Shown: positions 390-50,786 of the stretch, in pieces
How the letters are laid out: every line of letters begins with the position of its first letter
Position numbering within the stretch: position 1 is the stretch's first letter
NCBI RefSeq assembly: GCF_019458025.1
Contig: NZ_JAHZUY010000010.1
Location: 1-64,000, forward strand
Source: Caldovatus aquaticus
Lineage (GTDB): Bacteria; Pseudomonadota; Alphaproteobacteria; Acetobacterales; Acetobacteraceae
DNA length: 64,000 bases
Direction of reading: 5' to 3'
The notes under the pieces: generated by a model
What the model was told of the DNA's origin: nothing
Database searches by the model: none
Seen by the model: the letters and a program-made list of their open reading frames with translations, nothing else
Made by a program: the position numbers and the translations under genes

Positions 390-568
390 CGCCGGGGAGC
401 GGGGGCGGGCGCCAGGGCGCGCTGCGGCCGTTCCGGGCGGGGACCGGGATCCGCCCGGCTGCGTATCACTACTGCGCTGCCGGGCGGAGGTTGTGGCATA
501 GTGCATAATGATGGCGCCGGGCCCGCCGGACCGGGGGGCGGGCCGCGCAGCGAGGAGTGCATGCGCGC

Positions 569-1957
569 ATGAGGAAGGCTCGAGCGGCTGCCGCGGTCAC
601 GGCGGCGTTTGCCGCAGGGGTGGTGGTGGGCCCGCTGGTCGCCGCCTGGGCGCAGGAGCGCAGCGGGCTGAACGAGACCTACAAGCTGCTCGGCCTGTTC
701 GGCGAGGTCTTCGAGCGCGTGCGCGCCGATTACGTCGAGCCGATCAACGACCGCGAGGCGATCGAGAACGCGATCAACGGGATGCTGACCGGGCTCGACC
801 CGCATTCGAGCTACCTGAACGCGCGGACCTACCGCGACATGCAGGTGCAGACGCGCGGCGAGTTCGGCGGCCTCGGCATCGAGGTCACGCAGGAGAACGG
901 CTACATCAAGGTCATCTCGCCGATCGACGACACGCCGGCGGCGCGGGCCGGCATCCGCGCCGGCGACGTCATCACCCACCTCAACGGCACCACCGTGCAG
1001 GGCCTGACCCTGCAGGAGGCGGTCGAGCAGATGCGCGGCGAGCGCGGCACCTCGATCCGCCTCACCATCCGCCGCGAGGGCGCCGAGCGGCCGATCGAGT
1101 TGACCATCGTCCGCGACGTGATCCGCCCGCAGGTGGTGAAGTACCGCTTGGAGGGCAACGACATCGCTTATATCCGCCTCTCCAGCTTCAACGAGCAGAC
1201 CGAGACGCGGCTGCGCGAGGCGATGACGCGGATGCGCCAGCAGGCCGGCGGCAACCTGCGCGGCGTGGTGCTCGACCTGCGCAACAACCCGGGCGGGCTG
1301 CTCGACCAGGCGGTGCAGGTGGCCGACGACTTCCTCGAGCAGGGCGAGATCGTCTCCACCCGCGCCCGGCGCCCGGAGGGCGCGCAGCGCTGGAACGCCA
1401 AGCCCGGCGACATCGCGCAGGGCCTGCCGATGGTGGTGCTGATCAACGCCGGCAGCGCCAGCGCCTCCGAGATCGTCGCCGGAGCGCTGCAGGATCACCG
1501 CCGGGCGATCCTCCTCGGCGTCAAGTCCTTCGGCAAGGGCAGCGTGCAGACGGTGATGCCGCTCCCCGAAAACAACGGCGCCATCCGGCTGACCACGGCG
1601 CGCTACTACACGCCCTCCGGCCGCTCGATCCAGGCCACCGGCATCGAGCCCGACATCGAGGTCCACGCCAACCGGGACCAGGCCGCGGCCGGCATCCCGC
1701 GCGAGCGCGAGGCGGACCTGCGCCGCGCCTTGCGCCGCGAGGGCGCGGTGCAGCAGCCCCAGGCCGCGCCGTCGCTGCCGCCGCTGAACCTGCCGCCCGG
1801 CCTGGTCGAGCGGGTGGCGCGGCTTCCGCCCGAGGGCGCGCCGGCCTTCGACCCGACCAAGCCCGAGACCGACCACCAGCTGCAGCAGGCGCTGCAACTG
1901 CTGCGCGGCCTCGCGGCGGCGCAGCCCCAGTCGGCGCAGCGCCGCGCGGCGCGCTAG
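569..1957 (+). CDS. ctpA: Carboxyl-terminal processing protease (S41 family), CtpA
   Basis: Periplasmic serine protease of the S41 C-terminal processing family, about 462 residues. An N-terminal signal/anchor (about residues 5-30, ending near AWAQ) is followed by the S41 N-terminal helical region, a PDZ domain (about 85-165, with GGLGIEV and the AGIRAGDVI carboxylate-binding turn) and the catalytic core. The nucleophilic Ser lies in NAGSASASEI (about 295-302) and the general-base Lys in KSFGKGSVQT (about 318-327). The ATG at 569 is preferred over the GTG at 557, because GAGGAG (552-557) overlaps the GTG but sits 11 nt before the ATG. The tail after residue 390 is Pro/Gln/Arg rich and variable. 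It sits between envC-like and deacetylase genes, a conserved envelope cluster. The stop TAG is also the left edge of a dispersed repeat. Confidence 0.93.
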   Translation: MRKARAAAAVTAAFAAGVVVGPLVAAWAQERSGLNETYKLLGLFGEVFERVRADYVEPINDREAIENAINGMLTGLDPHSSYLNARTYRDMQVQTRGEFGGLGIEVTQENGYIKVISPIDDTPAARAGIRAGDVITHLNGTTVQGLTLQEAVEQMRGERGTSIRLTIRREGAERPIELTIVRDVIRPQVVKYRLEGNDIAYIRLSSFNEQTETRLREAMTRMRQQAGGNLRGVVLDLRNNPGGLLDQAVQVADDFLEQGEIVSTRARRPEGAQRWNAKPGDIAQGLPMVVLINAGSASASEIVAGALQDHRRAILLGVKSFGKGSVQTVMPLPENNGAIRLTTARYYTPSGRSIQATGIEPDIEVHANRDQAAAGIPREREADLRRALRREGAVQQPQAAPSLPPLNLPPGLVERVARLPPEGAPAFDPTKPETDHQLQQALQLLRGLAAAQPQSAQRRAAR

Positions 1958-2057
1958 AGCCGTTTCCGCTCGGCCGTGCGCGCGGCAACGGCCCCGGCGC
2001 GTTGTCTGCCGGGCGGATGCACGCTCCTGGCGGTTTCCGGCCGTCCGCGATCCGCTC
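1958..2057 (+). repeat. Dispersed structured intergenic repeat, copy R1
   Basis: Full-length copy, orientation taken as forward. It begins right after the ctpA stop (CTAG at 1954-1957) and ends in GATCCGCTC. Three stems can be drawn: GCCGTT 1959-1964 with AACGGC 1987-1992; CCCGGC 1993-1998 with GCCGGG 2008-2013; CGGAT 2014-2018 with ATCCG 2050-2054. R1 and R2 match at most positions. The rest of this 317 bp gap (2058-2274) is GC-rich with no recognisable gene; it holds only the AGGGAGG ribosome site of the next gene. Confidence 0.8.
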
Positions 2058-2274
2058 CGGGGCCGGCCTCGGGCGTCCGGGCGCGCGCCGACGGCGCCGT
2101 CGCGCCGCCCGCCGTGGGCTCCGGTGACGCGCCGCCTGCGGAGCGGCGGGTCCGGTGCGACGGACGGCGCGCTCGCGCCTCCCGCGGGGACCGGCCGGGG
2201 ACGCGAACGGGCGTCCGGAGCGCGAACGCGATGCCATGTGGGAGTTCCGGCTTCCGGCCGAGGGAGGCACGCCG

Positions 2275-4222: not shown

Positions 4223-5149
4223 ATGGCCTCGCGGCAGCGGCTCCTCCTCGTCTGCGGCCTCGGCTACGCCGGCATGGCGGTCGCCCGGGAGGCGACGGCG
4301 CGCGGCTGGAGGGTGGCCGGCACCGTGCGCGATCCGCACGCGGCGCGCCGCGGCGCGCCGGAGGGCGTCCGCGTGGTCGCCTTCGGCGCAGCGGCGCCGG
4401 CCTTCGCGGCGGCGACGCATCTCCTGGTGACGGCGCCGCCCGGGGAGGCGGGCGATCCGGTGATCGCGGCGCACCGCGCGGCGATCCTGGCGGCGCCGCG
4501 GCTCCGCTGGATCGGCTATCTCTCCACCACCGGCGTCTATGGCGATCGCGGCGGCGGGGAGGTGGACGAAGCGACGCCGCCCGCGCCGGCGCAGCCGCGC
4601 AGCCGCCGCCGCCTCGCCGCCGAGGAGGCGTGGCGGGCGCTGGCGGCGGAGGCGCCGGGCCGTCCGGCGCTCGACCTGTTCCGCACCGGCGGCATCTACG
4701 GGCCCGGACGCTCCGTCTTCGCGGCGCTGCGCGCCGGCACGGCGCGGCGCATCGTGAAGCCGGGCCATGCCTTCGCCCGCATCCACCGCGACGATCTCGC
4801 GCGGGCGGTGGCGGCGGCGGCCGGGCAGCCGGCGGAGCCCGGGCGCGTGCGCGTGCTCCACCTGGTGGACGACGAGCCGGCGGAGAACGCGGCGGTCGTC
4901 GAGGAGGCGGCGCGGCTGCTCGGCCTGCCGCCGCCCCCCGCGGTGCCCTTTGCCGAGGCCGCGCCCGGCATGTCGCCGGAGGCGTTGAGCTTCTGGGCGG
5001 AGAACCGGCGCGTCGCCAACGCCCGCACCAAGGCGGCGCTCGGCCTCGCCTGGCGGTATCCGGGCTACCGGGAGGGGCTGCGCGCGATCCTCGCCGCGGA
5101 GGCGGTCGCGGACGGCGGAGAACCGGCCGGGCGCGCGGATCGGCCCTAG
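4223..5149 (+). CDS. NAD(P)-dependent epimerase/reductase of the extended SDR type
   Basis: 308 residues with an N-terminal Rossmann fold (LLLVCGLGYAGMAVAREA, about residues 7-24, the GxGxxG dinucleotide site). The region WIGYLSTTGVYGDRGG (about 94-109) contains the Thr and Tyr of an SDR active site. FRTGGIYGPGRS near residue 153 is typical of YeeZ/WcaG-like proteins. The Lys of the classical YxxxK is not obvious (YGDRG), so this is an atypical SDR that may reduce a sugar nucleotide or bind cofactor only. The substrate cannot be told. It stands alone, 38 bp after rppH, and its stop TAG is the left boundary of repeat R2. Confidence 0.72.
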   Translation: MASRQRLLLVCGLGYAGMAVAREATARGWRVAGTVRDPHAARRGAPEGVRVVAFGAAAPAFAAATHLLVTAPPGEAGDPVIAAHRAAILAAPRLRWIGYLSTTGVYGDRGGGEVDEATPPAPAQPRSRRRLAAEEAWRALAAEAPGRPALDLFRTGGIYGPGRSVFAALRAGTARRIVKPGHAFARIHRDDLARAVAAAAGQPAEPGRVRVLHLVDDEPAENAAVVEEAARLLGLPPPPAVPFAEAAPGMSPEALSFWAENRRVANARTKAALGLAWRYPGYREGLRAILAAEAVADGGEPAGRADRP

Positions 5150-5250
5150 CGCCGTTTCCGCCCGACCGTGCGCGCGGCAACGGCTCCGGCGCGGTGTCTG
5201 CCGGGCGGATTCACGCTCCCGGCTGTTCCGGCCGTCCGCGATCCGCTCTA
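5150..5250 (+). repeat. Dispersed structured intergenic repeat, copy R2
   Basis: Best-preserved full copy, flanked on both sides by CTAG (5146-5149 and 5248-5251). It fills the whole space between two convergent genes: the left CTAG holds the stop of the SDR gene and the right one holds, on the other strand, the stop of the hydrolase gene. Stems: GCCGTT 5151-5156 with AACGGC 5179-5184; CCGGC 5186-5190 with GCCGG 5200-5204; GCGGAT 5205-5210 with ATCCGC 5241-5246. Confidence 0.85.
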
Positions 5251-6009
5251 GCCGCCGAGGTCGGCGAGCAGCGCATCCAGGGTGCGGGTCAGCAGCGCGA
5301 GGTCCTGCGGCCGCGACAGGCGGTGATCGCCGTCCTTGACCAGGATGACGTGCACGTCCGGCGACGCGAGCGCCTCCGCCGTGCGCAGCGAGAGGCGCCA
5401 GTCCACGTCCGGGTCCTGCTGCCCGTGCAGCAGCCGCGCCGGACCGGCAAGCGGGATCGGCGCGTTCAGCACCAGGCGGCGGTTGCCGTCCTCGATCAGC
5501 GCGCGGGTGATCGGGGTCGGCTCGCCGTAGGCGCTCGGCAGGCGGACGATGCCGTCGCGCGCGAGTGCCGCCCGCTGCTCCGGCGTCATGCGGCGCTCCG
5601 GCAGCTCGGCGGTGAAGTCGGGCGCGGCGGCGACGCCGACCAGCCCGGCGACGCGCTCCGGCCAGCGGCGCGCGAGCAGCAGCGCGATCCAGCCGCCCAT
5701 CGAGGAGCCGACCAGGACCTGCGGGCCTTCGGTGAGCCGCTCGATCAGAAGCGCGGCGTCGTCGGTCCAGATCCCGACGGTGCCGTCCTCGAACCGCCCC
5801 CCGCTCGCGCCGTGGCCGGAGTAGTCGAGGCGCAGATAGGCCTGGCCGCGCGCGGCGCAGAAGGCGGCCAGCGCCTCCGCCTTCTGCCCGGTCATGTCGG
5901 AGCGGAAGCCGCCGAGGAACACCACGCCGGGGCCGCGTCCCGGCAGGCGCCGCCAGGCGAGGGGCACGCCGTCGGCGCGCGCGAGGGTGCCGCTCTCCTC
6001 GCGCGTCAT
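5248..6009 (-). CDS. Alpha/beta hydrolase (ABHD10/BAAT-like serine hydrolase)
   Basis: 253 residues, cytoplasmic. The nucleophile elbow VGSSMGGW (about residue 102) carries the catalytic Ser. The oxyanion strand is VVFLGGFRSDMTG, a pattern typical of the ABHD10-like group of small thioesterases/esterases. The acid is probably in the QDPDVDW region, and the catalytic His is in DGDHRLSRPQDL near the C-terminus. The ATG overlaps the stop of the upstream FAH-family gene by 4 nt (ATGA, 6006-6009), so the two are translationally coupled and probably act on one substrate, with a C-C hydrolase step next to an ester/thioester step (inference). The stop codon lies on the edge of repeat R2. Confidence 0.8.
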   Translation of the reverse strand: MTREESGTLARADGVPLAWRRLPGRGPGVVFLGGFRSDMTGQKAEALAAFCAARGQAYLRLDYSGHGASGGRFEDGTVGIWTDDAALLIERLTEGPQVLVGSSMGGWIALLLARRWPERVAGLVGVAAAPDFTAELPERRMTPEQRAALARDGIVRLPSAYGEPTPITRALIEDGNRRLVLNAPIPLAGPARLLHGQQDPDVDWRLSLRTAEALASPDVHVILVKDGDHRLSRPQDLALLTRTLDALLADLGG

Positions 6010-7184
6010 CGGTGCACGCTCCGCGGCAGGCCGCGGCGGGCGAGGCTCGCGAACAGCGCGCCGGCGCCGAAGGTCCAGGGCGGGCACTCGTCGGTGCGGT
6101 CCACCTCGTTGACCAGCGCGCCGAGCCTCGGGCTGCGGATGGTGACCACGTCGCCCTCCCTGTGCGTGAAGCCCATGCCCGGCGCGCCGCGGTCCTTCAC
6201 CGGAGAGAAGGGCGTGCCGAGGAAGAGCACCACGCCGTCCGGATACTGGTGGTGCGGGCCGATGAGCTGGGCCACGAGCTCGACGGGATCGCGGCTGATC
6301 GCGCCGACCTCGCCGGTCTCCTCCAGCCGGAAGCCGTCCCGTCCCTCGATGGCGAGGGTGAGGGTGGCGCGGCGCACATCCTCCAGCGTGAAGGACCCGT
6401 CGAACAGGCGGATCATCGGGCCGAGGGCGCAGGAGGCGTTGTTGTCCTTCGCCCGGCCGAGCAGCAGCGCCGAGCGCCCCTCCACGTCGCGCAGGTTCAC
6501 GTCGTTGCCGAGCGTGGCGCCGACGATGCGCCCGCGCGCGTTCACCACCAAGACCGCCTCGGGCTCCGGGTTGTTCCAGGCGCTCATCGGGTGCACGCCG
6601 ACCTTGGCGCCGAGGCCGACCGCGGCCATGGGCGGGCATTTGGTGAAGATCTCGGCATCGGGGCCGATGCCGACCTCGAGGTACTGGCTCCACCAGCCCT
6701 TGGCGACCAGCGCCTCCTTCACCCGCATCGCCTCCGGGCTGCCGGGGCGGAGGCTGGCGAGGTCGTCGCCGATGATGGCCTGCACCTCCGCGCGCACCGC
6801 CGCGGCGCGCGCGGCGTCGCCGCGGCAGCGTTCCTCGATGACGCGCTCCAGCATCGAACGGACGTAGGTGACGCCGGAGGCCTTCACCGCCGCGAGGTCC
6901 ACCGGCGCGAGCAGCCAGGGCGCGCCGGCGCGGCGCGCGTCGTGGGCGGAGTTCGCGATCAGCCCGGCGAGGTCGAGGGCGAGCGGCTCGCCGCGCGCGC
7001 GGATGGCGGCCACGGCGTCCTCCTCCTCCAGCCAGCGGCTGACGGTGCCGAAGGCGGGGGTCAGGTCGAAGGCCTCCCCGCCGGCGAGGCCGAGGACGAC
7101 CGGGCCCGCCTCGGTCATGATGCGCGCGGCGTAGCTGCCCTGCGGCCAGTCCTCCGGCAGGATCGCGGTGGGGTCGAGCCGCAT
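6006..7184 (-). CDS. Fumarylacetoacetate hydrolase (FAH) family protein
   Basis: 392 residues. The FAH superfamily cleaves or hydrates acylpyruvate-type compounds using a divalent metal. Recognisable are ASGVTYVRSMLERV, the conserved core VLVVNARGRIVGATLGNDVNLRDVEGRSA (about residues 215-245; shown here only as a landmark), and the late GVVLFLGTPFSPVKDRGA plus MGFTHREGDVVTI. Metal ligands would be acidic residues in this core. The start ATG at 7184 has AGGAGG 9 nt upstream. It is the first gene of a two-gene unit with the alpha/beta hydrolase. The exact substrate is unknown; a role in catabolism of an aromatic or sugar-acid intermediate is inferred from the family. Confidence 0.82.
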   Translation of the reverse strand: MRLDPTAILPEDWPQGSYAARIMTEAGPVVLGLAGGEAFDLTPAFGTVSRWLEEEDAVAAIRARGEPLALDLAGLIANSAHDARRAGAPWLLAPVDLAAVKASGVTYVRSMLERVIEERCRGDAARAAAVRAEVQAIIGDDLASLRPGSPEAMRVKEALVAKGWWSQYLEVGIGPDAEIFTKCPPMAAVGLGAKVGVHPMSAWNNPEPEAVLVVNARGRIVGATLGNDVNLRDVEGRSALLLGRAKDNNASCALGPMIRLFDGSFTLEDVRRATLTLAIEGRDGFRLEETGEVGAISRDPVELVAQLIGPHHQYPDGVVLFLGTPFSPVKDRGAPGMGFTHREGDVVTIRSPRLGALVNEVDRTDECPPWTFGAGALFASLARRGLPRSVHR

Positions 7185-28179: not shown

Positions 28180-28194
28180 TCGCCGCGCCGGCGC

Positions 28195-29208
28195 TCAGTC
28201 GATCCGCGCGCCGGAGACCCGCACCACCTCCGCCCACTTCGTGATCTCGCCGCGGATGAACGCCTCGAAGGCGTCGGGCGTGGTGCCGCCGTCCGGCGTC
28301 AGGTTCGGCGGGTCGGCGCCGAGTTCCGCCAGCTTGGCGCGCACCGCGGGCTCCTTGCTCACCGCGTCCACCGCCGCGCCGAGCTTCGCGACGATCGGAC
28401 GCGGCGTGCGCGCCGGGGCCTGCAGGCCGAACCAGGCGGTCGCCTCGAAGTCCGGCACGCCGGATTCGGCGAGCGTCGGCACCTCCGGCAGCGCCGGGGA
28501 GCGGACGTGGCTGGTGACGGCGAGCGCGCGCAGCCGCCCCTCGCGGATGTGGCCGATGCAGGAGGGCATGTTGTCGCAGCCGACCTCGACCCGGCCGGCG
28601 ACCGCCTCGACCAGCATCGGCCCGGCGCCGCGGAACGGCACGTGGGTGATCTGCACGCCGGTCCGGAGCTTGAAGTACTCCATCGTCATGTGCGGCGAGC
28701 CGCCGCTGCCGGCGCTGCCGTAGTTGAGCTGGCCGGGCCGCGCCTTCGCCAGCGCCACCAGCTCGGCGATGCTGCGCGCGGGGACGGAGGGGTGGACGAA
28801 GACGACGTTGGGGACGCGCAGGAACAGGCCGACCGCGGTGAGATCCTCCGGCCGGTAGGGCATGCGCGGGCCGAACAGCGCGTAGTTGATCGCCGCCGGC
28901 GAGATCGCGTTCACCAGCAGCGTGTAGCCGTCGGGCGCGGCGCGGGCGACCGCCTCGCCGGCGATGTTGCCGGTCGCGCCCGGGCGGTTCTCGACCGGGA
29001 AGGGCTGGCCGAGCCGCGCCGCGAGCCGCTCGGCGTAGATCCGCGCGGCGATGTCGGTGGTGCCGCCGGGCGGGAACCCCACCAGCAGGCGGACCGGGCG
29101 CGACGGGTAGTCGGCGGCGGCGAAGGGCTGCGCGCGGGCGAGGGGAACGCCGGAGCCGGCGGCGAGGGCGAGGCTCCCGAGCAGGATCGCGCGGCGGTCT
29201 GGATGCAT
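28195..29208 (-). CDS. Bug-family tripartite tricarboxylate transporter receptor
   Basis: 337 residues: signal peptide (about 1-27, RRAILLGSLALAAGSG ending ARAQ) and the two-lobed Bug fold. Landmarks are RPVRLLVGFPPGGTTDIAAR (about 36-55), VENRPGATGNIAGEAVA, the ligand-contacting loop NYGSAGSGGSPHMTMEYF, and HVPFRGAGPMLVEAVAGRV. Bug proteins bind carboxylates in the periplasm for TctAB-type transporters or for signalling. No tctA/tctB is adjacent. The neighbouring upstream gene on the same strand is a close paralogue, separated by 103 bp. Confidence 0.92.
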   Translation of the reverse strand: MHPDRRAILLGSLALAAGSGVPLARAQPFAAADYPSRPVRLLVGFPPGGTTDIAARIYAERLAARLGQPFPVENRPGATGNIAGEAVARAAPDGYTLLVNAISPAAINYALFGPRMPYRPEDLTAVGLFLRVPNVVFVHPSVPARSIAELVALAKARPGQLNYGSAGSGGSPHMTMEYFKLRTGVQITHVPFRGAGPMLVEAVAGRVEVGCDNMPSCIGHIREGRLRALAVTSHVRSPALPEVPTLAESGVPDFEATAWFGLQAPARTPRPIVAKLGAAVDAVSKEPAVRAKLAELGADPPNLTPDGGTTPDAFEAFIRGEITKWAEVVRVSGARID

Positions 29209-29311
29209 TCCGGTTTTCCTCCCGGGGCGGCGCGTGGGACGCCCCGGAGAACTCTAGCCGCCGTTCCGCCTCCCCGGCCAGACGCCCCGTGCGCCCGTCC
29301 GCGGCGGGACC

Positions 29312-30313
29312 TCAGTCGATGGTGGCGCCGGAACGCTCCACCACCTGCGCCCACTTCGCGATCTCGTTGCGGATGAACGCCTCGAAGGCCTCCGGCGTGG
29401 TGCCGCCGTCCGGCGTCAGGTTCGGCGGCATGCCGCCGAGATCGGCGAGCTTGGCGCGCGTCTCCGGCTCCTTCACGATGGCGTCCAGCTCCCGGCCGAG
29501 CCGCTCGATGATCGGGCGCGGGGTGCGCGCCGGGGCCTGCACGCCGAACCAGGCGGTCGCCTCGACCCCGGGCAGGCCCTCCTCCGCGGTGGTCGGGCAG
29601 TCGGGCAGCGCCGGCGAGCGCGTCGCCGTGGTGACGGCGAGCGCGCGCAGCCGCCCCTCGCGGATGTGGCCGAGGGCGGAGGGCAGGTTGTCCACCGCCA
29701 CCTGCACGCGGCCCGCGATCACCTCGGTCAGCATCGGCCCGGCGCCGCGGAACGGCACGTGCGTCATGTCGATCCCGGCCTCGAGCTTCAGCAGCTCGCC
29801 GGTCATGTGCAGGCTGGTGCCGCTTCCGGAGCTGCCGATGTTGAGCTGGCCCGGCCTCTGCTTGGCGTAGGCGACGAGCTCGCGCAGCGTGCGCACCGGC
29901 AGCGAGGGGTGCACGAAGATCACGTTCGGCACCCGCACCACCAGCGCGACGGCGGCGAGGTCCTCCGGCCGGTAGGGCATGCGCTGCTTGTAGAGCGCGT
30001 AGTTGATCGCCCCGGAACTGATCGTCTGCATCAGCAGCGTGTAGCCGTCGGGCTCCGCCTTGGCGACGATGTCGGCGCCCAGGTTGCCGCCGGCGCCGGG
30101 GCGGTTCTCGATCACCACCTGCTGGCCGAGCCGCTGGCCGAGCGGCGGGGCGATGATGCGCGCGGCGATGTCGGTGGTGCCGGCGGGCGGGAACCCGACG
30201 ATCAGGCGGATCGGCCGGGCCGGCCAGCCGGCGGGCTGCGCGCCGGCGCGGGCGAGCGGCGCCCAGGCGAAGGCGGCAGCGCCCAGCAGCAGGGTGCGGC
30301 GGTGGTGTGTCAT
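29312..30313 (-). CDS. Bug-family receptor, tandem paralogue
   Basis: 333 residues, same architecture as its neighbour: signal peptide (about 1-26), RPIRLIVGFPPAGTTDIAAR, VIENRPGAGGNLGADIVAK, HVPFRGAGPMLTEVIAGRV. The C-terminal thirds of the two proteins are almost the same (both contain NLTPDGGTTP then AFEAFIR). Several DNA stretches of 30 or more bases are identical or nearly so, for example near 28280-28314 and 29396-29430. GAGGAGG lies about 8 nt before the ATG. It likely arose by tandem duplication. The ligand may differ because the central loops have diverged (GSSGSGTSLHM against GSAGSGGSPHM). Confidence 0.92.
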   Translation of the reverse strand: MTHHRRTLLLGAAAFAWAPLARAGAQPAGWPARPIRLIVGFPPAGTTDIAARIIAPPLGQRLGQQVVIENRPGAGGNLGADIVAKAEPDGYTLLMQTISSGAINYALYKQRMPYRPEDLAAVALVVRVPNVIFVHPSLPVRTLRELVAYAKQRPGQLNIGSSGSGTSLHMTGELLKLEAGIDMTHVPFRGAGPMLTEVIAGRVQVAVDNLPSALGHIREGRLRALAVTTATRSPALPDCPTTAEEGLPGVEATAWFGVQAPARTPRPIIERLGRELDAIVKEPETRAKLADLGGMPPNLTPDGGTTPEAFEAFIRNEIAKWAQVVERSGATID

Positions 30314-39337: not shown

Positions 39338-39364
39338 GGCGGCTCCCTCGGTCTGCCCCGTTCC

Positions 39365-39415
39365 TAGAGCAGATCGCGGACGGCTGGAAACGGCCGGGAG
39401 GGAAACCCGCTCCGG
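39365..39415 (-). repeat. Dispersed structured intergenic repeat, partial copy R5
   Basis: Reverse-orientation copy of the repeat. The first 36 bp (TAGAGCAGATCGCGGACGG and on to GGGAG) match the distal end of R2 closely; the remainder has drifted. It starts at a CTAG (39364-39367) and lies between the divergent pyrE and ELM1-like genes, 27 bp before the pyrE start codon. Confidence 0.7.
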
Positions 39416-39486
39416 CCGGCGCCGGACCAGGGCCGCCGGCGCGCCCGCGGCCGGACGCGCACGGCGCTAGCCGGCAGGCCGGGCCC

Positions 39487-42205: not shown

Positions 42206-42243
42206 GGAGCCGGCGGGGGAGGGCCGCGGCGCCGGCCGGCCTG

Positions 42244-42343
42244 CAGCCGTTCCTGCCCGGCCTGGCGCGCGGCGACGGTGCCGGCTCGTTGTCTGTCGAG
42301 CGGATTCGCACCCCCGGCGGCCGCTTGCCGTCCGCGATCCGCA
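42244..42343 (+). repeat. Dispersed structured intergenic repeat, copy R3
   Basis: Full-length but drifted copy. The right half (GCGGATTC ... CCGTCCGCGATCCGC) is close to R1 and R2. The stem positions are kept with changes: CCGTT 42247-42251 faces GACGG 42274-42278 (one wobble pair), and GCGGAT 42300-42305 faces ATCCGC 42337-42342. It lies between two plus-strand genes, and its right end is 21 bp before the GTG start of the next gene. Confidence 0.75.
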
Positions 42344-42364
42344 GCAGCGGAGGAAAGGCGGACC

Positions 42365-42949: not shown

Positions 42950-43023
42950 TCCCGCGGGCGGGCGGCGTGGTCGCGCGGCGGGATCGCAGCGGCGGTTCCG
43001 GCCCGGCGCTGCCCGCGCCGAGT

Positions 43024-43063
43024 CCCGCTCCCGGCTGTTTTCCGCCGTCCGCGATCCGCTCTA
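43024..43063 (+). repeat. Dispersed structured intergenic repeat, partial copy R4
   Basis: Only the distal 40 bp are clear (CCCGCTCCCGGCTG then GATCCGCTCTA). The preceding 30 bp keep little similarity. The last three bases, CTA, are on the minus strand the TAG stop of the carbamoyltransferase gene, as in R2. The GGC-N8-GCC inner stem is retained. Confidence 0.65.
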
Positions 43064-44779
43064 TGGGCGCGGCGGGCCGTAGATCGCCTGCGTTGTCACC
43101 AGGAAGTCCACCCGGTCCTGCCGCAGCGCCTTCAGCGCCTCCTCCGGGCGGTTGATGATCGGCTCCTCGTGGACGTTGAAGGAGGTGTTGATCAGCACCG
43201 GCAGGCCGGTCGCCCGCTCGTAGGCCTCGAGGATGTCGTAGTAGGTCGGGTTGGCGGCGCGCGCGAGCACCTGCGGGCGCGCCGTGCCGTCCACGTGCAC
43301 CACGGCCGGGATGCGCTCGCGCCACTCCTCCCGCACGTCGCAGGTCACGGTCATGAAGCGCGCCGTGTAGAGCAGGCTGCGGGGCAGGGCGAACACCTCG
43401 GCGCAGCGCTCCTCGCGCACGACCGGGGCGAAGGGCATGAAGTCGGTGCGGTCGAGGCGCCGGTTGAGCTCGTCGTTCACCGTGCGCGAGACCGGCGCGG
43501 CCAGGATGCTGCGCGCGCCGAGCGCGCGCGGCCCGTACTCGCAGCGCCCGATGTAGGTGCCGAGCACCTTGCCTTCGCGCAGCAGCGCCGCCGCCCGCCC
43601 GGGCACGGCCGGCCCTTCCGCCACGACCTCGCATCCCGCCGCCCGGAACGCCGCGTCCACCCCCGCCGCGTAGTCGCGGCCGAGGTAGAGGTCCGCGAAG
43701 CGGCGGCGCCGGCGGAGCCAGGCCGCGAGGCCGTCGCGCTCGAGCAGGTATTGCAGCACGCCGCCCGCTGCCTCGCCCTGGTCGGACATGGCGGGATAGA
43801 CGAAGACCTCCTCGAGGCCGCGGAAACGCTCGGCGATGCGCTGGGTCAGCTTGACGTTGGCGAACACGCCGCCGCTCAGGCCGAGGGCGCGCGCCGGATG
43901 CCGCTCCAGGATCGCCTGCAGCGCCCGCAGCACCAGGGTCTCCAGCGCGCCCTGCACGGAGGCCGCGACGTCCGCCCGCTCCGCGCCGGCGGCGAGCGCG
44001 CTCAGCCGCGCCTGGATCGTCCCGTGGTCCACCCGCGCCTTGATCTGCCCGTCCGGGCGCACCTCGTAGAGCCGGACCAGCTCCTCGGCGAAGCGCGGCT
44101 GCCCGAAGGCGGCGAGGCCGAGCACCTTGCCCTCGTGGCGCAGCGGCACCATCCCGAGTTCGCGCGTGATGCCGGCGTAGAGCAGGCCGAGGCTGTCCGC
44201 GCGCACCTGCGGCCGGCGCAGCGAGAGCGAATCCCGCTCGCCGCCGAAGAGGTCGGTGAGGCACCCGTCCTTCAGCCGCCGCGCGCTGTAGAAGACGCGG
44301 TCGCCGCCGCCGTCGGCGGTGTAGAGCAGCGCGTCGTCCCAGTCGGTGTGGAACAGCGCGCCCAGCGCGTGGGCGAGGTGGTGGTTGTAGAACACGATGC
44401 GGCGGGGCTGCAGGCCGTGTCCGGCCAGCCAGCGGCGCGCGTCCAGCGCCGCCAGCGGATCGCGGATCATGTTGCGCGACATCACCCGCGCGAGGTCGAG
44501 GCGCCCGCGGCTCGCGCGCTGGCGCGCCGGGAAGTGGGCGCGCCAGCGGAAGTACTCCGCCGGATATTCGACCCGCGGCAGCGCCACCACCGCGACGTCG
44601 CGCGCCGTCACCCCCGCGGCGCGCAGGCATTCCTCGACCGCCTCGCCCGGCAGCGCGCCGCCATCGCCCTTGATGCGCGTCACCCGCTCCTGGGCGACGG
44701 CGGCGAGGAGGCGATAGTCGTCGTGCAGCGCCGCATTGGCGTCGTGCGCGGTGTAGAGACCGAGGATCAGCATCGCCAT
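43061..44779 (-). CDS. O-carbamoyltransferase, NodU/CmcH/TobZ family
   Basis: About 572 residues. The N-terminal TsaD/Kae1-like domain carries the metal-binding pattern YNHHLAHALGALFHTD (about 121-136), DGGGDR and LGLSGGVFANVKLTQ. The C-terminal carbamoyl-phosphate domain has GRCEYGPRALGARSILA (about 415-431) and LINTSFNVHEEPIINRPEEAL. The enzyme family transfers a carbamoyl group via carbamoyl-adenylate to sugars, antibiotics or Nod factors. Here no biosynthetic gene is adjacent, so the acceptor is unknown. The ATG at 44779 (MAMLILG) is preferred, but the ATG at 44773 is equally possible. The stop is shared with repeat R4. Confidence 0.88.
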   Translation of the reverse strand: MAMLILGLYTAHDANAALHDDYRLLAAVAQERVTRIKGDGGALPGEAVEECLRAAGVTARDVAVVALPRVEYPAEYFRWRAHFPARQRASRGRLDLARVMSRNMIRDPLAALDARRWLAGHGLQPRRIVFYNHHLAHALGALFHTDWDDALLYTADGGGDRVFYSARRLKDGCLTDLFGGERDSLSLRRPQVRADSLGLLYAGITRELGMVPLRHEGKVLGLAAFGQPRFAEELVRLYEVRPDGQIKARVDHGTIQARLSALAAGAERADVAASVQGALETLVLRALQAILERHPARALGLSGGVFANVKLTQRIAERFRGLEEVFVYPAMSDQGEAAGGVLQYLLERDGLAAWLRRRRRFADLYLGRDYAAGVDAAFRAAGCEVVAEGPAVPGRAAALLREGKVLGTYIGRCEYGPRALGARSILAAPVSRTVNDELNRRLDRTDFMPFAPVVREERCAEVFALPRSLLYTARFMTVTCDVREEWRERIPAVVHVDGTARPQVLARAANPTYYDILEAYERATGLPVLINTSFNVHEEPIINRPEEALKALRQDRVDFLVTTQAIYGPPRP

Positions 44780-44868
44780 TCCCGTGCGGTTCGCGCGCAT
44801 AGGCCCATGCGCCCCGCGTCCGCGCAAGCGGGGCGCCGTCCGGCCCGCGGGCGGGGAGGGGGGCGTGC

Positions 44869-45190: not shown

Positions 45191-45211
45191 AGCGGTCCGC
45201 CGCGCCTCCGC

Positions 45212-45315
45212 GAGCGGATCGCGGACGGCGGGAAACAGCCGGGAGCGTGAATCCGCGCGGCGGAGAAGGAGGCAGAGCTCTTGCCGCGCGCGCAGCCGAG
45301 CGGAAAGGGCGCCAG
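45212..45315 (-). repeat. Dispersed structured intergenic repeat, copy R6
   Basis: Full-length reverse-orientation copy. On the plus strand GCGGAT 45214-45219 pairs with ATCCGC 45251-45256. CTCTT 45278-45282 faces AAGGG 45305-45309 in the place where other copies have GCCGTT/AACGGC, so the stem position is kept although the bases changed. The middle stem is degenerate. The following 150 bp up to 45466 show no gene. Confidence 0.75.
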
Positions 45316-49052: not shown

Positions 49053-49946
49053 ATGCCGGATTGGCTCGTCCCGCTCGCCCAGGTTCTGTTCATCGACATC
49101 GTGCTGGCCGGCGACAACGCCATCGTGGTCGGCATGGCCGCCGCGGGCCTGCCGCCGGCGCAGCGACGCCAAGCGATCGTCTGGGGCATCGCGGCGGCGA
49201 CGCTGATGCGCATCGCCTTCGCCTCGATCACCGTGCAGCTGCTGGCGATCGTCGGCCTCACCCTCGCCGGCGGCGTGCTGCTGCTCTGGGTGTGCTGGAA
49301 GATGTTCCGCGAGCTGCGCGAGCCGCACGGGAAGCCGGGTGATGTCGCCGACGCCGAGCCCGCGCACGCGCCGGAGGAGGGCTTCGCCGCGACGCCGCTG
49401 CCGGCTGCCGTGCCGCGCAAGACGCTGGGTCAGGCGATCACGCAGATCCTGATCGCCGACGTCTCGATGAGCCTCGACAACGTGCTCGCGGTGGCAGGGG
49501 CGGCGAAGCATCACATCTGGGTGCTCGTGGTCGGCCTTGCGATCTCGGTGGTCCTGATGGGCGTGGCCGCGACGCTGATCGCGCGCCTGCTCGAGCGGCA
49601 CCGCTGGATCGCCTGGCTCGGCCTGCTGGTGATCCTCTACGTCGCGCTCGACATGATCTGGCACGGCACGCACGAGGTCGCCGAGAAGGTGCCAGGCGCC
49701 TACGCCTATCTCATGCTCCCGCTCGGCTATCTCGCCCTGCCGGGGGTCTTCCCCCCCTGGCTCTGGGCCATCGCGACGCTCGGCCAGGTCATCGGCTTCA
49801 CCGCCGTCGCCACCCTGGTGGTGGAGGTGCTGCGCAGCCGCCATGCCCGCCTGGCGGCGCGCGAACAGCCGCCCGTCGCCGCCGAGCGGAAATCTGTCGA
49901 AAATATTGCAGAAATGCCATTCAAGCGGACGAAGATCGTAGGGTAG
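49053..49946 (+). CDS. TerC-family integral membrane protein (first copy)
   Basis: 297 residues, about 7-9 transmembrane helices. It carries the two TerC signature blocks with membrane-embedded acidic residues: FIDIVLAGDNAIVVGMAAAG (about 12-31) and IADVSMSLDNVLAVAGAAKH (about 133-152). TerC/Alx-type proteins export Mn2+ or other metals (established for some members). A cytoplasmic linker at about 90-120 (AEPAHAPEEGFAATPL) separates the repeats. The start ATG at 49053 is 110 bp after the promoter-like island. A paralogue follows 123 bp downstream. Confidence 0.88.
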   Translation: MPDWLVPLAQVLFIDIVLAGDNAIVVGMAAAGLPPAQRRQAIVWGIAAATLMRIAFASITVQLLAIVGLTLAGGVLLLWVCWKMFRELREPHGKPGDVADAEPAHAPEEGFAATPLPAAVPRKTLGQAITQILIADVSMSLDNVLAVAGAAKHHIWVLVVGLAISVVLMGVAATLIARLLERHRWIAWLGLLVILYVALDMIWHGTHEVAEKVPGAYAYLMLPLGYLALPGVFPPWLWAIATLGQVIGFTAVATLVVEVLRSRHARLAAREQPPVAAERKSVENIAEMPFKRTKIVG

Positions 49947-50067
49947 CGGCTTTTCGTCCAGCGTCGGCTCGACTAGCGTCCCGCCTCCGTTCACGGAGCC
50001 GGGATCGCGCCGTCCAGGTGGCGTCCGGGCTCCTGCCAAGCCTTCGGGCGCCACCGGAGACCGCTGC
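49943..50067 (+). ncRNA. Predicted structured leader of the second terC gene (riboswitch-like, unproven)
   Basis: Between the two terC genes the RNA could form a closed three-way junction: stem P1, GTAGCGG 49943-49949 with CCGCTGC 50061-50067; hairpin 1, CCCG-CTCCG-TTCA-CGGAG-CGGG (49980-50003, one mismatch); hairpin 2, GGTGGCG 50017-50023 with CGCCACC 50049-50055 and inner CCG/CGG and GGCT/AGCC pairs. The GGAG ribosome site (50056-50059) sits in the joining strand between hairpin 2 and P1. This looks like a switchable leader, but I do not see the conserved GGGGAGUAGC of the yybP-ykoY manganese class, so the assignment is open. Confidence 0.45.
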
Positions 50068-50069
50068 GC

Positions 50070-50786
50070 ATGGACTGGCTGACCGCACTCTCGACCAGCT
50101 TCGACTTGGTCGTTCTGGGCAAGATCCTCGGCGTCAACATCGTCCTCTCGGGCGACAACGCGGTGCTGATCGCGCTCGCCGCCGCGGGCCTGCCCGCGGC
50201 GAAGCGCGGCCAGGCGATCCTGTTCGGCATGATCCTCGCCGTGGTGCTGCGCGTCCTGCTCAGCCTCGCGGCGGTCTATCTGCTGGAGATCCCGGGCCTG
50301 CTGCTGCTGGGCGGCGCCATCCTGCTGTGGATCGCCTGGACCTTCTACAACGAGCTGCGCGAGGAGGACAAAGCCGAGGAGGCCGCGCTCGCCGGCGCGC
50401 GCGAGGCGCCGCACAAGACCATGGCGACCGCGCTGCAGCAGATCGTCATCGCCGACGTCTCGATGAGCCTCGATAACGTGCTCGCGGTGGCGGGGGCGGC
50501 GGTGGGCAACATCCCGATGCTGGTCCTCGGCCTGACCATCTCCATCCTCATGATGGGTGCCGCGGCCACGGTGATCTCCCGGCTTATGGAACGCTACCGC
50601 TGGATCGCCTATGTCGGCGTCGCGCTCATCGTCTGGATCGGGGTGGAGATGATCTGGCACGACGCCGAACGGCTCTGGGGCATGTGGCAGGGCGAGGCTG
50701 CCGGGCACGCGGGCCTCCTGCTGCCCGGTGCGGCGCCGCCGCCTGCCGGGCACGGCGCGGATCCGGCCTGGCCGCTGCGCGGATGA
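50070..50786 (+). CDS. TerC-family integral membrane protein (second copy)
   Basis: 238 residues, with the same two signature blocks as the first copy (VNIVLSGDNAVLIALAAAG, about 24-42, and IADVSMSLDNVLAVAGAAVG, about 128-147) and about seven transmembrane helices. It lacks the longer C-terminal extension of the first copy. Likely a metal exporter of the same type; the ions are not shown by the sequence. The start ATG is 10 nt after GGAG and directly after the P1 stem of the predicted leader. The downstream lipoprotein overlaps its stop (ATGA). Confidence 0.88.
   Translation: MDWLTALSTSFDLVVLGKILGVNIVLSGDNAVLIALAAAGLPAAKRGQAILFGMILAVVLRVLLSLAAVYLLEIPGLLLLGGAILLWIAWTFYNELREEDKAEEAALAGAREAPHKTMATALQQIVIADVSMSLDNVLAVAGAAVGNIPMLVLGLTISILMMGAAATVISRLMERYRWIAYVGVALIVWIGVEMIWHDAERLWGMWQGEAAGHAGLLLPGAAPPPAGHGADPAWPLRG

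Follow-up and report, generated by a model that had tools for sequence, protein, structure and literature searches.

A mobile two-arm repeat on TAG stop codons in Caldovatus aquaticus

The locus and its repeat family

The window analysed here is a stretch of 64,000 nucleotides from contig NZ_JAHZUY010000010.1 of the hot-spring alphaproteobacterium Caldovatus aquaticus (RefSeq assembly GCF_019458025.1). Between a gene with a weak Epimerase match and a Hydrolase_4 gene on the other strand, it contains a 100-bp repeat, R2, that fills the gap so exactly that the stop codon of each gene takes its last base from the repeat (Table 1). A preliminary description of the window had placed CTAG on both sides of R2, to the left of a second copy, R1 (1954-1957), and at one end of a third, R5 (39364-39367). 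It had also recognized the TAG at R1 and R2 as the stop of the adjoining plus-strand gene, and CTA, at R2 and at a more diverged copy, as the stop of the minus-strand gene. All of these assignments were correct, and a second CTAG that had been overlooked makes R5 CTAG-flanked on both sides. The description had gone on to propose a miniature inverted-repeat transposable element (MITE) of IS5 type with a 4-bp CTAG target duplication, which we weigh below.

R2 is one copy of a two-hairpin repeat of about 100 bp, for which BLAST gave at least 48 matches in the genome that the window comes from (G000; 142 contigs, 3.99 Mb), R2 itself included, with 40 of 303 first-look candidates scored. The best match other than R2 had an E-value of 1e-38, so the repeat stands far above chance. 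Within the window, six copies exceeded 30 bits with nhmmer (at 1954, 5146, 39364, 42244, 42971 and 45212), which, scaled by proportion, suggests a few hundred copies in the genome. Full CTAG is missing at both ends in three of the six (42244, 45212 and 42971, of which the last keeps CTAT). With its length of 100 bp, its lack of a transposase gene and its many copies, the unit has the form expected of a short non-autonomous MITE.

Using BLAST, we found the repeat to be abundant in G001, another Caldovatus genome, and in the relative G023, and to be present in few, weak copies in G002, the third Caldovatus genome (assembly 78% complete); no copies were seen in the other 36 relatives, with up to 22 candidates scored in each. 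At an E-value of 0.001 or less, a covariance model built from 48 copies had matches in 43 of the 150 Acetobacteraceae genomes, including the three Caldovatus genomes and G023, and the matches listed span the whole model. A scan of the window against 4227 Rfam families gave no match at their gathering scores. The counts given below refer, unless stated otherwise, to 110 copies from G000, G001 and G023 that scored above 45 bits, were near full length and lay away from the ends of the stretches. Because the G000 copies were taken from the top of the BLAST ranking for R2, the sample is tilted towards well-kept copies; most of the genome records are draft assemblies, and a simple codon-usage score served to call genes.

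The repeat is mobile, because relatives carry empty sites. At R5, the window has CTAG-element-CTAG (39364-39470), while the plus strand of G002 has one CTAG, that of G001 one CTAA and that of G023 one GTAG, and the sequences align on both sides. At locus L026, CTAA-element-CTAA corresponds to a single CTAT in both G001 and G002. Other copies have no counterpart in relatives in which the orthologous gene stops at the matching codon. (The search for virtual empty sites covered 26 of the 39 copies, the last in each set incompletely, and an orthologous stop was called empty when no repeat lay within 40 bases of it.) The empty site with a single CTAG, which the preliminary description had named as the thing to look for, thus exists, and its view of a non-autonomous mobile element aimed at CTAG is supported. 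At the L012 site, G001 has an apparent partial repeat (L126).

In a further genome, G080, the repeat has undergone a burst, represented by 20 near-identical copies (20 fetched of 26 scored) in different surroundings. All 20 begin with CTAG; 19 end with CTAG and one with CTAA. Seven of these copies adjoin a different, unrelated repeat of about 115 bp, which has ends like GTGTCC...GGACAC at CTAG or CTGG and, by eye, two palindromic parts; they sit on its end in one orientation (L225, L232, L233, L238 and L239) or the other (L234 and L242). Copies of the main repeat that occur in pairs, whether head-to-head, tail-to-tail or in tandem, share one tetranucleotide (L026, L041, L084, L168, L025 and L030), as expected if copies insert into each other's CTAG. 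At the R1 stop (window 1954-2060), G001 and G023 carry the repeat in the opposite orientation (L073, L074), as does G001 (L114) at the L046 stop, through either independent insertions into a hot spot or inversion in place. In two convergent gene pairs (L015/L059 and L036/L062), the repeat lies at the stop of one gene in G000 and at that of the other gene in G001, reflecting either separate insertions or a changed flank.

Table 1. Repeat copies, their parts and the adjoining genes in the window
Feature	Position	Strand	Remarks
R2, repeat proper	5149..5248	+	100 bp, first base G, last base C; limits from inner-base conservation and outermost stem pairs
Left TA of R2	5147..5148		most likely target duplication, inside CTAG 5146-5149
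Right TA of R2	5249..5250		most likely target duplication, inside CTAG 5248-5251
R2 arm 1 hairpin	5149..5186	+	alignment columns 4-41
R2 arm 2 hairpin	5203..5248	+	alignment columns 58-104
GATTC in R2 arm 2	5208..5212	+	GANTC, CcrM-type site
Gene, weak Epimerase match	4223..5149	+	TAG stop 5147-5149 is TA plus first base of R2
Hydrolase_4 gene	5248..6693	-	TAG stop (CTA 5248-5250) is TA plus last base of R2
R1 copy	1957..2057	+	TA 1955-1956 preserved and part of the stop codon; CCGG on the right side
Peptidase_S41 (PDZ) gene	557..1957	+	TAG stop 1955-1957 on R1 boundary
R5 copy	39367..39467	-	between CTAG 39364-39367 and CTAG 39467-39470; divergent genes either side; cleanest empty site in relatives
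Further copy	42241..42347	+	both ends decayed (CTGC/GCAG)
Further diverged copy	42959..43064	+	right end CTAT, its CTA the stop of open reading frame 43061-44827 (-)
Carbamoyltransferase open reading frame	43061..44827	-	stop CTA 43061-43063
Further copy	45209..45315	-	ends CTGG/CGCG

The window also contains direct repeats of 116-300 bp at 28187-29928 and 49074-50661, with 72-79% identity and a spacing of about 1.0-1.1 kb, which are probably tandem duplicated genes.

Target site and stop codons

CTAG is present on both sides of 26 of the 110 copies, and TA at both ends of 36. The ten TA-flanked copies that are not CTAG/CTAG include one with equal tetranucleotides, and the proposed 4-bp duplication was not borne out. 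At ends with intact TA, the outer base of the tetranucleotide deviates 27 times (it fits in 104 of 131) and the inner base four times. Of 143 ends without a stop codon, 131 retain the inner base, 113 the outer base and 54 TA. The inner G or C is steady and TA decays, and the layout is therefore C^TA^[G...C]^TA^G. CTAG is the usual target and most likely only TA is duplicated, although CTAG is palindromic, so the length of the duplication rests on the minority of other targets and could still be 4 bp. The idea that the right CTAG is part of the element, suggested by L016, was overturned by the same tally of inner and outer bases. Ends that vary between copies had been put forward beforehand as an argument against such an element. 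Variation was indeed seen (CTGG, CCGG, CCAG and others), mainly at non-stop ends, as decay would give. Decayed ends often read CTGG or CCAG, as might result from very-short-patch repair.

The target is rare. CTAG occurs 12 times in the window, compared to 62 (standard deviation 7) expected from shuffles, an approximately five-fold depletion, and five of the 12 are the ends of three repeat copies. Outside the repeats, the G000 stretches have two CTAG inside called genes, six at stops and 25 elsewhere; in the G001 stretches, the numbers are five, three and 25.

The flanks of the 110 copies comprise 118 gene 3' ends, seven gene 5' ends, 87 flanks that the codon-usage score calls non-coding and eight that are too short to tell. 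At 77 of the 118 facing 3' ends, the stop codon lies exactly on the boundary and consists of TA and one base of the element (76 TAG, one TAA). Insertion at a stop codon in a way that leaves a stop, proposed from the few copies in the window, is thus more general than could be seen there. At least one boundary stop is found in 71 of the 110 copies and two in six; R2 has them at both ends. The other 41 facing stops are TGA (31) and TAG (10). Stops away from repeats are distributed as 145 TGA, 33 TAG and five TAA in the G000 stretches and as 97 TGA, 17 TAG and one TAA in those of G001 (242, 50 and six combined). A C stands before TAG in 61 of the 77 boundary stops, vs 10 of the 50 TAG stops elsewhere (p = 4e-11). 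The element begins with G whichever strand is read, and its insertion behind the TA of a TAG or TAA stop therefore gives TAG again, as the sequence itself dictates.

Where a congeneric relative (G000, G001 or G002) lacks the repeat at a given stop, TA is part of its orthologous stop at 14 of the 21 loci, compared to 56 of 298 in the background (p = 2e-6), where the background is overall stop usage rather than retention at ordinary TAG stops. The 14 were counted by hand (10 loci from G000 copies and four from G001, with the stop within one codon of the aligned place); the count leaves out R2 left (extension +2, +6), L014 (+5), L019 (+3), L023 right (+6), L034 (G023 only) and hits of about 50% identity. 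TAG mostly follows a base other than C in the relatives, and mostly follows C in the filled copies; a preference for CTAG together with turnover at the wobble position would give this.

Arms, ends and alternative origins

The consensus of the repeat, CTAGAGCCGTTTCCGC...GCGATCCGCTCTAG, folds into two arms joined by a linker. Each arm opens with GAG(C) and closes with (G)CTC, and the outermost pairs, formed by the inner G and C, adjoin the left and right TA. In the alignment, 87.5% of the cells are paired, vs 32-47% after sliding of the partners, and neither the observed covariation nor the observed pairing was reached in any of 500 shuffles; the arms were taken from the folded consensus before pairs were counted, so the figure leans on the consensus, and the shuffles take no account of relatedness. 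At pair 62:100, 39 G000 copies have G-C, 19 G001 copies C-G and 10 G023 copies A-T. The inner pairs 14:31, 15:30, 18:27, 43:57 and 65:97 are among those broken in one or two genomes, and the inner stems are thus less certain. RNAalifold found almost no structure in the 110 copies. In the G080 copies (e.g., L223), each arm is bounded by CTAG or GTAG, and the unit has the appearance of a pair of adjoining IS630-like mini-palindromes.

GANTC is present in arm 2 of 79 of the 110 copies (32 of 43 in G000, 29 of 44 in G001 and 18 of 23 in G023) and is therefore common, not invariant; GATTC also occurs in the 20 G080 copies and in loci of G105 and G199. We considered a regulatory role of the kind known from Caulobacter, but in G000 (36 of 43) and G001 (31 of 44) the second T of GATTC is conserved less than its other four bases.

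The ends of the repeat point to an IS630-type transposase. DDE_3 matches were found in G002, in G023 and, as one fragment at a contig end, in G000, and in five of the six repeat-bearing relatives searched; G001 had none. When TA-flanked inverted ends were sought in 39 of the 50 DDE_3 loci, two elements with GAGC ends emerged, L191 and L258, which share the end CTAG-GAGCGGTTT, like the 5' end of the repeat. L191, from the window's genus (G002; 1390-2486), has the end GAGCGGTTTTTGA, CTAG on both sides and a transposase reading frame of 330 aa (DDE_3 E 7e-28). L258 (977-2018), from G154, in the genus of G080, has the end GAGCGGTTTCC and CTAG on both sides (DDE_3 E 8.5e-30), and its genome also contains matches to the repeat model. 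The L258 end agrees with the 5' end of the G080 repeat at 10 of 10 positions and with that of the window's own repeat at nine of 10 (10 of 11); for L191, the values are nine of 10 and eight of 10, respectively. The chance of nine of 10 or better is 3e-5 per random end. From these ends, the partner is probably of IS630 rather than IS5 type, and we assign the R2-type repeat with good confidence to the non-autonomous miniature elements of the IS630/Tc1-mariner type.

Several observations weigh against this assignment, or against parts of it. The 3' end of the repeat, GAGCGGATCGCGG, matches the IS630 ends less well (seven of 10 positions for the own repeat and six of 10 for G080, relative to L258), which is why the terminal repeats are weak; the agreement between the two ends of R2 at about seven of 12 positions, given in the preliminary description, is correct against the consensus. 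Of the nine IS630-type elements whose ends were compared, seven have other ends (L256, L257, L265, L273 and L275 were left out of the comparison; by eye, none begins with GAGC). A resident autonomous partner with these ends was not found in the repeat-rich Caldovatus genomes, G000 having only the fragment at a contig end and G001 no DDE_3 match, and G002, the host of L191, has few repeats. The arms show compensatory changes that preserve their pairing, something not required of a plain MITE. As for the duplication, the G080 burst cannot separate TA from CTAG, two decayed copies without TA have equal flanks (CGAG/CGAG and CCGG/CCGG), and at L016 and L044 one flank equals the tetranucleotide of the relatives and the other does not, so a history of TA duplication needs later mutations. 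Finally, at seven of the 21 loci (R2 right, L016, L018, L026b, L037, L045 and L046), the relatives have a TGA stop, either in the matching position or one codon away. Stop-codon turnover can explain these; alternatively, they may reflect insertion at other dinucleotides followed by repair.

It is unlikely that the repeat is instead an IS5-type MITE with a 4-bp CTAG (YTAR) duplication. Such an element would account for CTAG on both sides of the 26 copies and of 19 of the 20 young G080 copies. IS711 is an IS5-type element. It has YTAR as its target (PMC2266754, PMC3163539). IS-like sequences were also found in the CTAG of three copies, where they run from the right CTAG to the contig end (L012:1-124, L027:1-124 and L035:3142-3264, with the same sequence in L012 and L035), and a 40-aa piece of L012 matched DDE_Tnp_1_2 weakly, at a level that falls short of the cut-off (E 0.037). 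However, the ends of these sequences, GTCCTGGACTC and GTCCTGAACCC, are unlike those of the repeat, and no convincing ends were seen at the 12 of 29 PF01609 loci checked, one of which, L188, holds a repeat copy. The tetranucleotides argue in the same direction, being equal in only one of the 10 informative copies, with inner bases that behave as element and outer bases that behave as target. Since IS711 duplicates only TA according to passages of PMC2266754 and PMC3163539, an IS711-like element with TA duplication is opposed by the ends alone and not by the boundary data.

Equally improbable is a first spread by transposition followed by selection at gene 3' ends for a use to the host, as a terminator, an mRNA 3'-end stabiliser or a GANTC methylation site. 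The excess of gene 3' over 5' ends, the conserved arms with their three versions of pair 62:100 and the frequency of GANTC in all three genomes would be explained by such a use. The bias towards 3' ends is, however, also expected from CTAG/TAG targeting combined with selection against promoter damage, and most of the orthologous stops examined in relatives lack the repeat and have the same end codon. The second T of GATTC is the least conserved of the five bases in G000 and G001, and R2 and R1, folded alone on both strands, were not clearly stabler than shuffles (z -0.6 to -1.5). A REP/REPIN-like or IS200/IS605-derived element moved by single-strand transfer with a Y1 (HUH) transposase is very improbable: the two terminal hairpins beside CTAG would suit it, and CTAG at both ends would look alike if one belonged to the element, but the outer base varies and the inner base is steady at both ends, where a fixed 4-base end is expected on one side, and Y1_Tnp (PF01797) had no match in G000, G001, G023 or G002 (78% complete), although 6 of 40 genomes and 5 of 14 control genomes did match.

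Related repeats and the stop-codon niche

In the IS630 reading, a transposase acting in trans would cut at the GAGC... ends and paste the unit into the TA of CTAG, with duplication of TA. CTAG being depleted and nearly absent inside genes, TAG stops would be among the few tolerated targets. The insertion would split TA|G, and the terminal G of the element would restore TAG on either strand and in either orientation. With the stop restored, the insertion would be nearly neutral and be kept; TA would decay at non-stop ends and be kept by selection at stop ends. Tenzen and Ohtsubo (1991) reportedly found that IS630 itself inserts preferentially into the TA within 5'-CTAG-3'. Insertions of another member of the family, ISY100, are flanked by duplicated TA (PMC2170065). 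The repeat resembles IS630 in its preference for TA in CTAG and its likely TA duplication, and differs in that IS630 is autonomous, with a transposase, which the repeat lacks.

Among alphaproteobacterial repeats, the closest in description are the CcrM-associated intergenic repeats (CIR) of Caulobacter and Brucella, which are about 110 bp long and have two arms and a linker, GANTC and TA termini (Chen and Shapiro 2003, as reviewed by Delihas, PMC2229807). Compared by description, the two share their size, intergenic position, two arms with a linker, GANTC in one arm, TA termini and the lack of a clear terminal inverted repeat. The relevant passages of that review, from 2007, give the CIR target duplication as "?" and leave the mechanism of mobility open, whereas the present repeat has empty sites, TA within CTAG as its target and a match to IS630-type ends. 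Bru-RS1 and Bru-RS2 of Brucella are palindromic repeats of 103 and 106 bp that attract IS711, with its YTAR target and TA duplication (PMC10800456, PMC2266754, PMC3163539). Again by description, they are alike in size, palindromic structure, intergenic position and service as a hot spot for a YTAR-targeting IS; the IS-like ends in the CTAG of the present repeat parallel IS711 in Bru-RS1. The difference is that mobility of Bru-RS itself is not described in the passages of those papers considered here. RUP of Streptococcus pneumoniae, a 107-bp non-autonomous repeat with a TA target and ends like those of the host's IS630-Spn1 (PMC2229807), is an IS630-linked repeat that the present one resembles in its way of working; RUP comes from another phylum, has another sequence and is given no association with stop codons in the RUP passages of PMC2229807.

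Under strict filters and with 13 candidates scored in each genome, a class-wide search with the covariance model matched two of 289 genomes, one of them G000, and did not show sequence kinship to CIR or Bru-RS. Two loci of G199, from another family of the class, have two-arm repeats that contain GATTC and are bordered by CTAG on one side (L243 and L244; e.g., GAGCGGATTCACGC...GCGATCCGCTCTAG), a hint that the repeat class is wider than the Acetobacteraceae. We file the R2-type repeat as a new IS630-type MITE family with CIR-like architecture and do not claim membership in CIR by sequence. A literature search of limited reach found nothing that links RIME, CIR or Bru-RS1 repeats with IS630, and one confined mainly to listings found no description of the stop-codon niche. 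This niche is the striking part; otherwise, the element belongs to a known kind, that of CIR, Bru-RS and RUP-like MITEs.

We tentatively suggest, at slightly less than even confidence, that this is a transposable element adapted to stop codons, whose CTAG target is nearly absent inside genes and whose terminal G and C recreate TAG after any insertion into a TAG or TAA stop, whatever the strand or orientation, with the result that gene 3' ends are colonised at almost no cost, and that the same IS630-driven mechanism explains the mobility of the wider alphaproteobacterial two-arm GANTC repeats, such as CIR and Bru-RS. The mobility, target and likely transposase class found here concern a two-arm, GANTC-bearing repeat similar to those for which the CIR passages of PMC2229807 leave the mechanism open. 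For annotation, such copies define gene ends. More generally, the repeat offers a testable rule: a bacterial MITE would reach many copies harmlessly by means of a rare palindrome that is tolerated mainly at stops and between genes, together with a base that rebuilds the stop.

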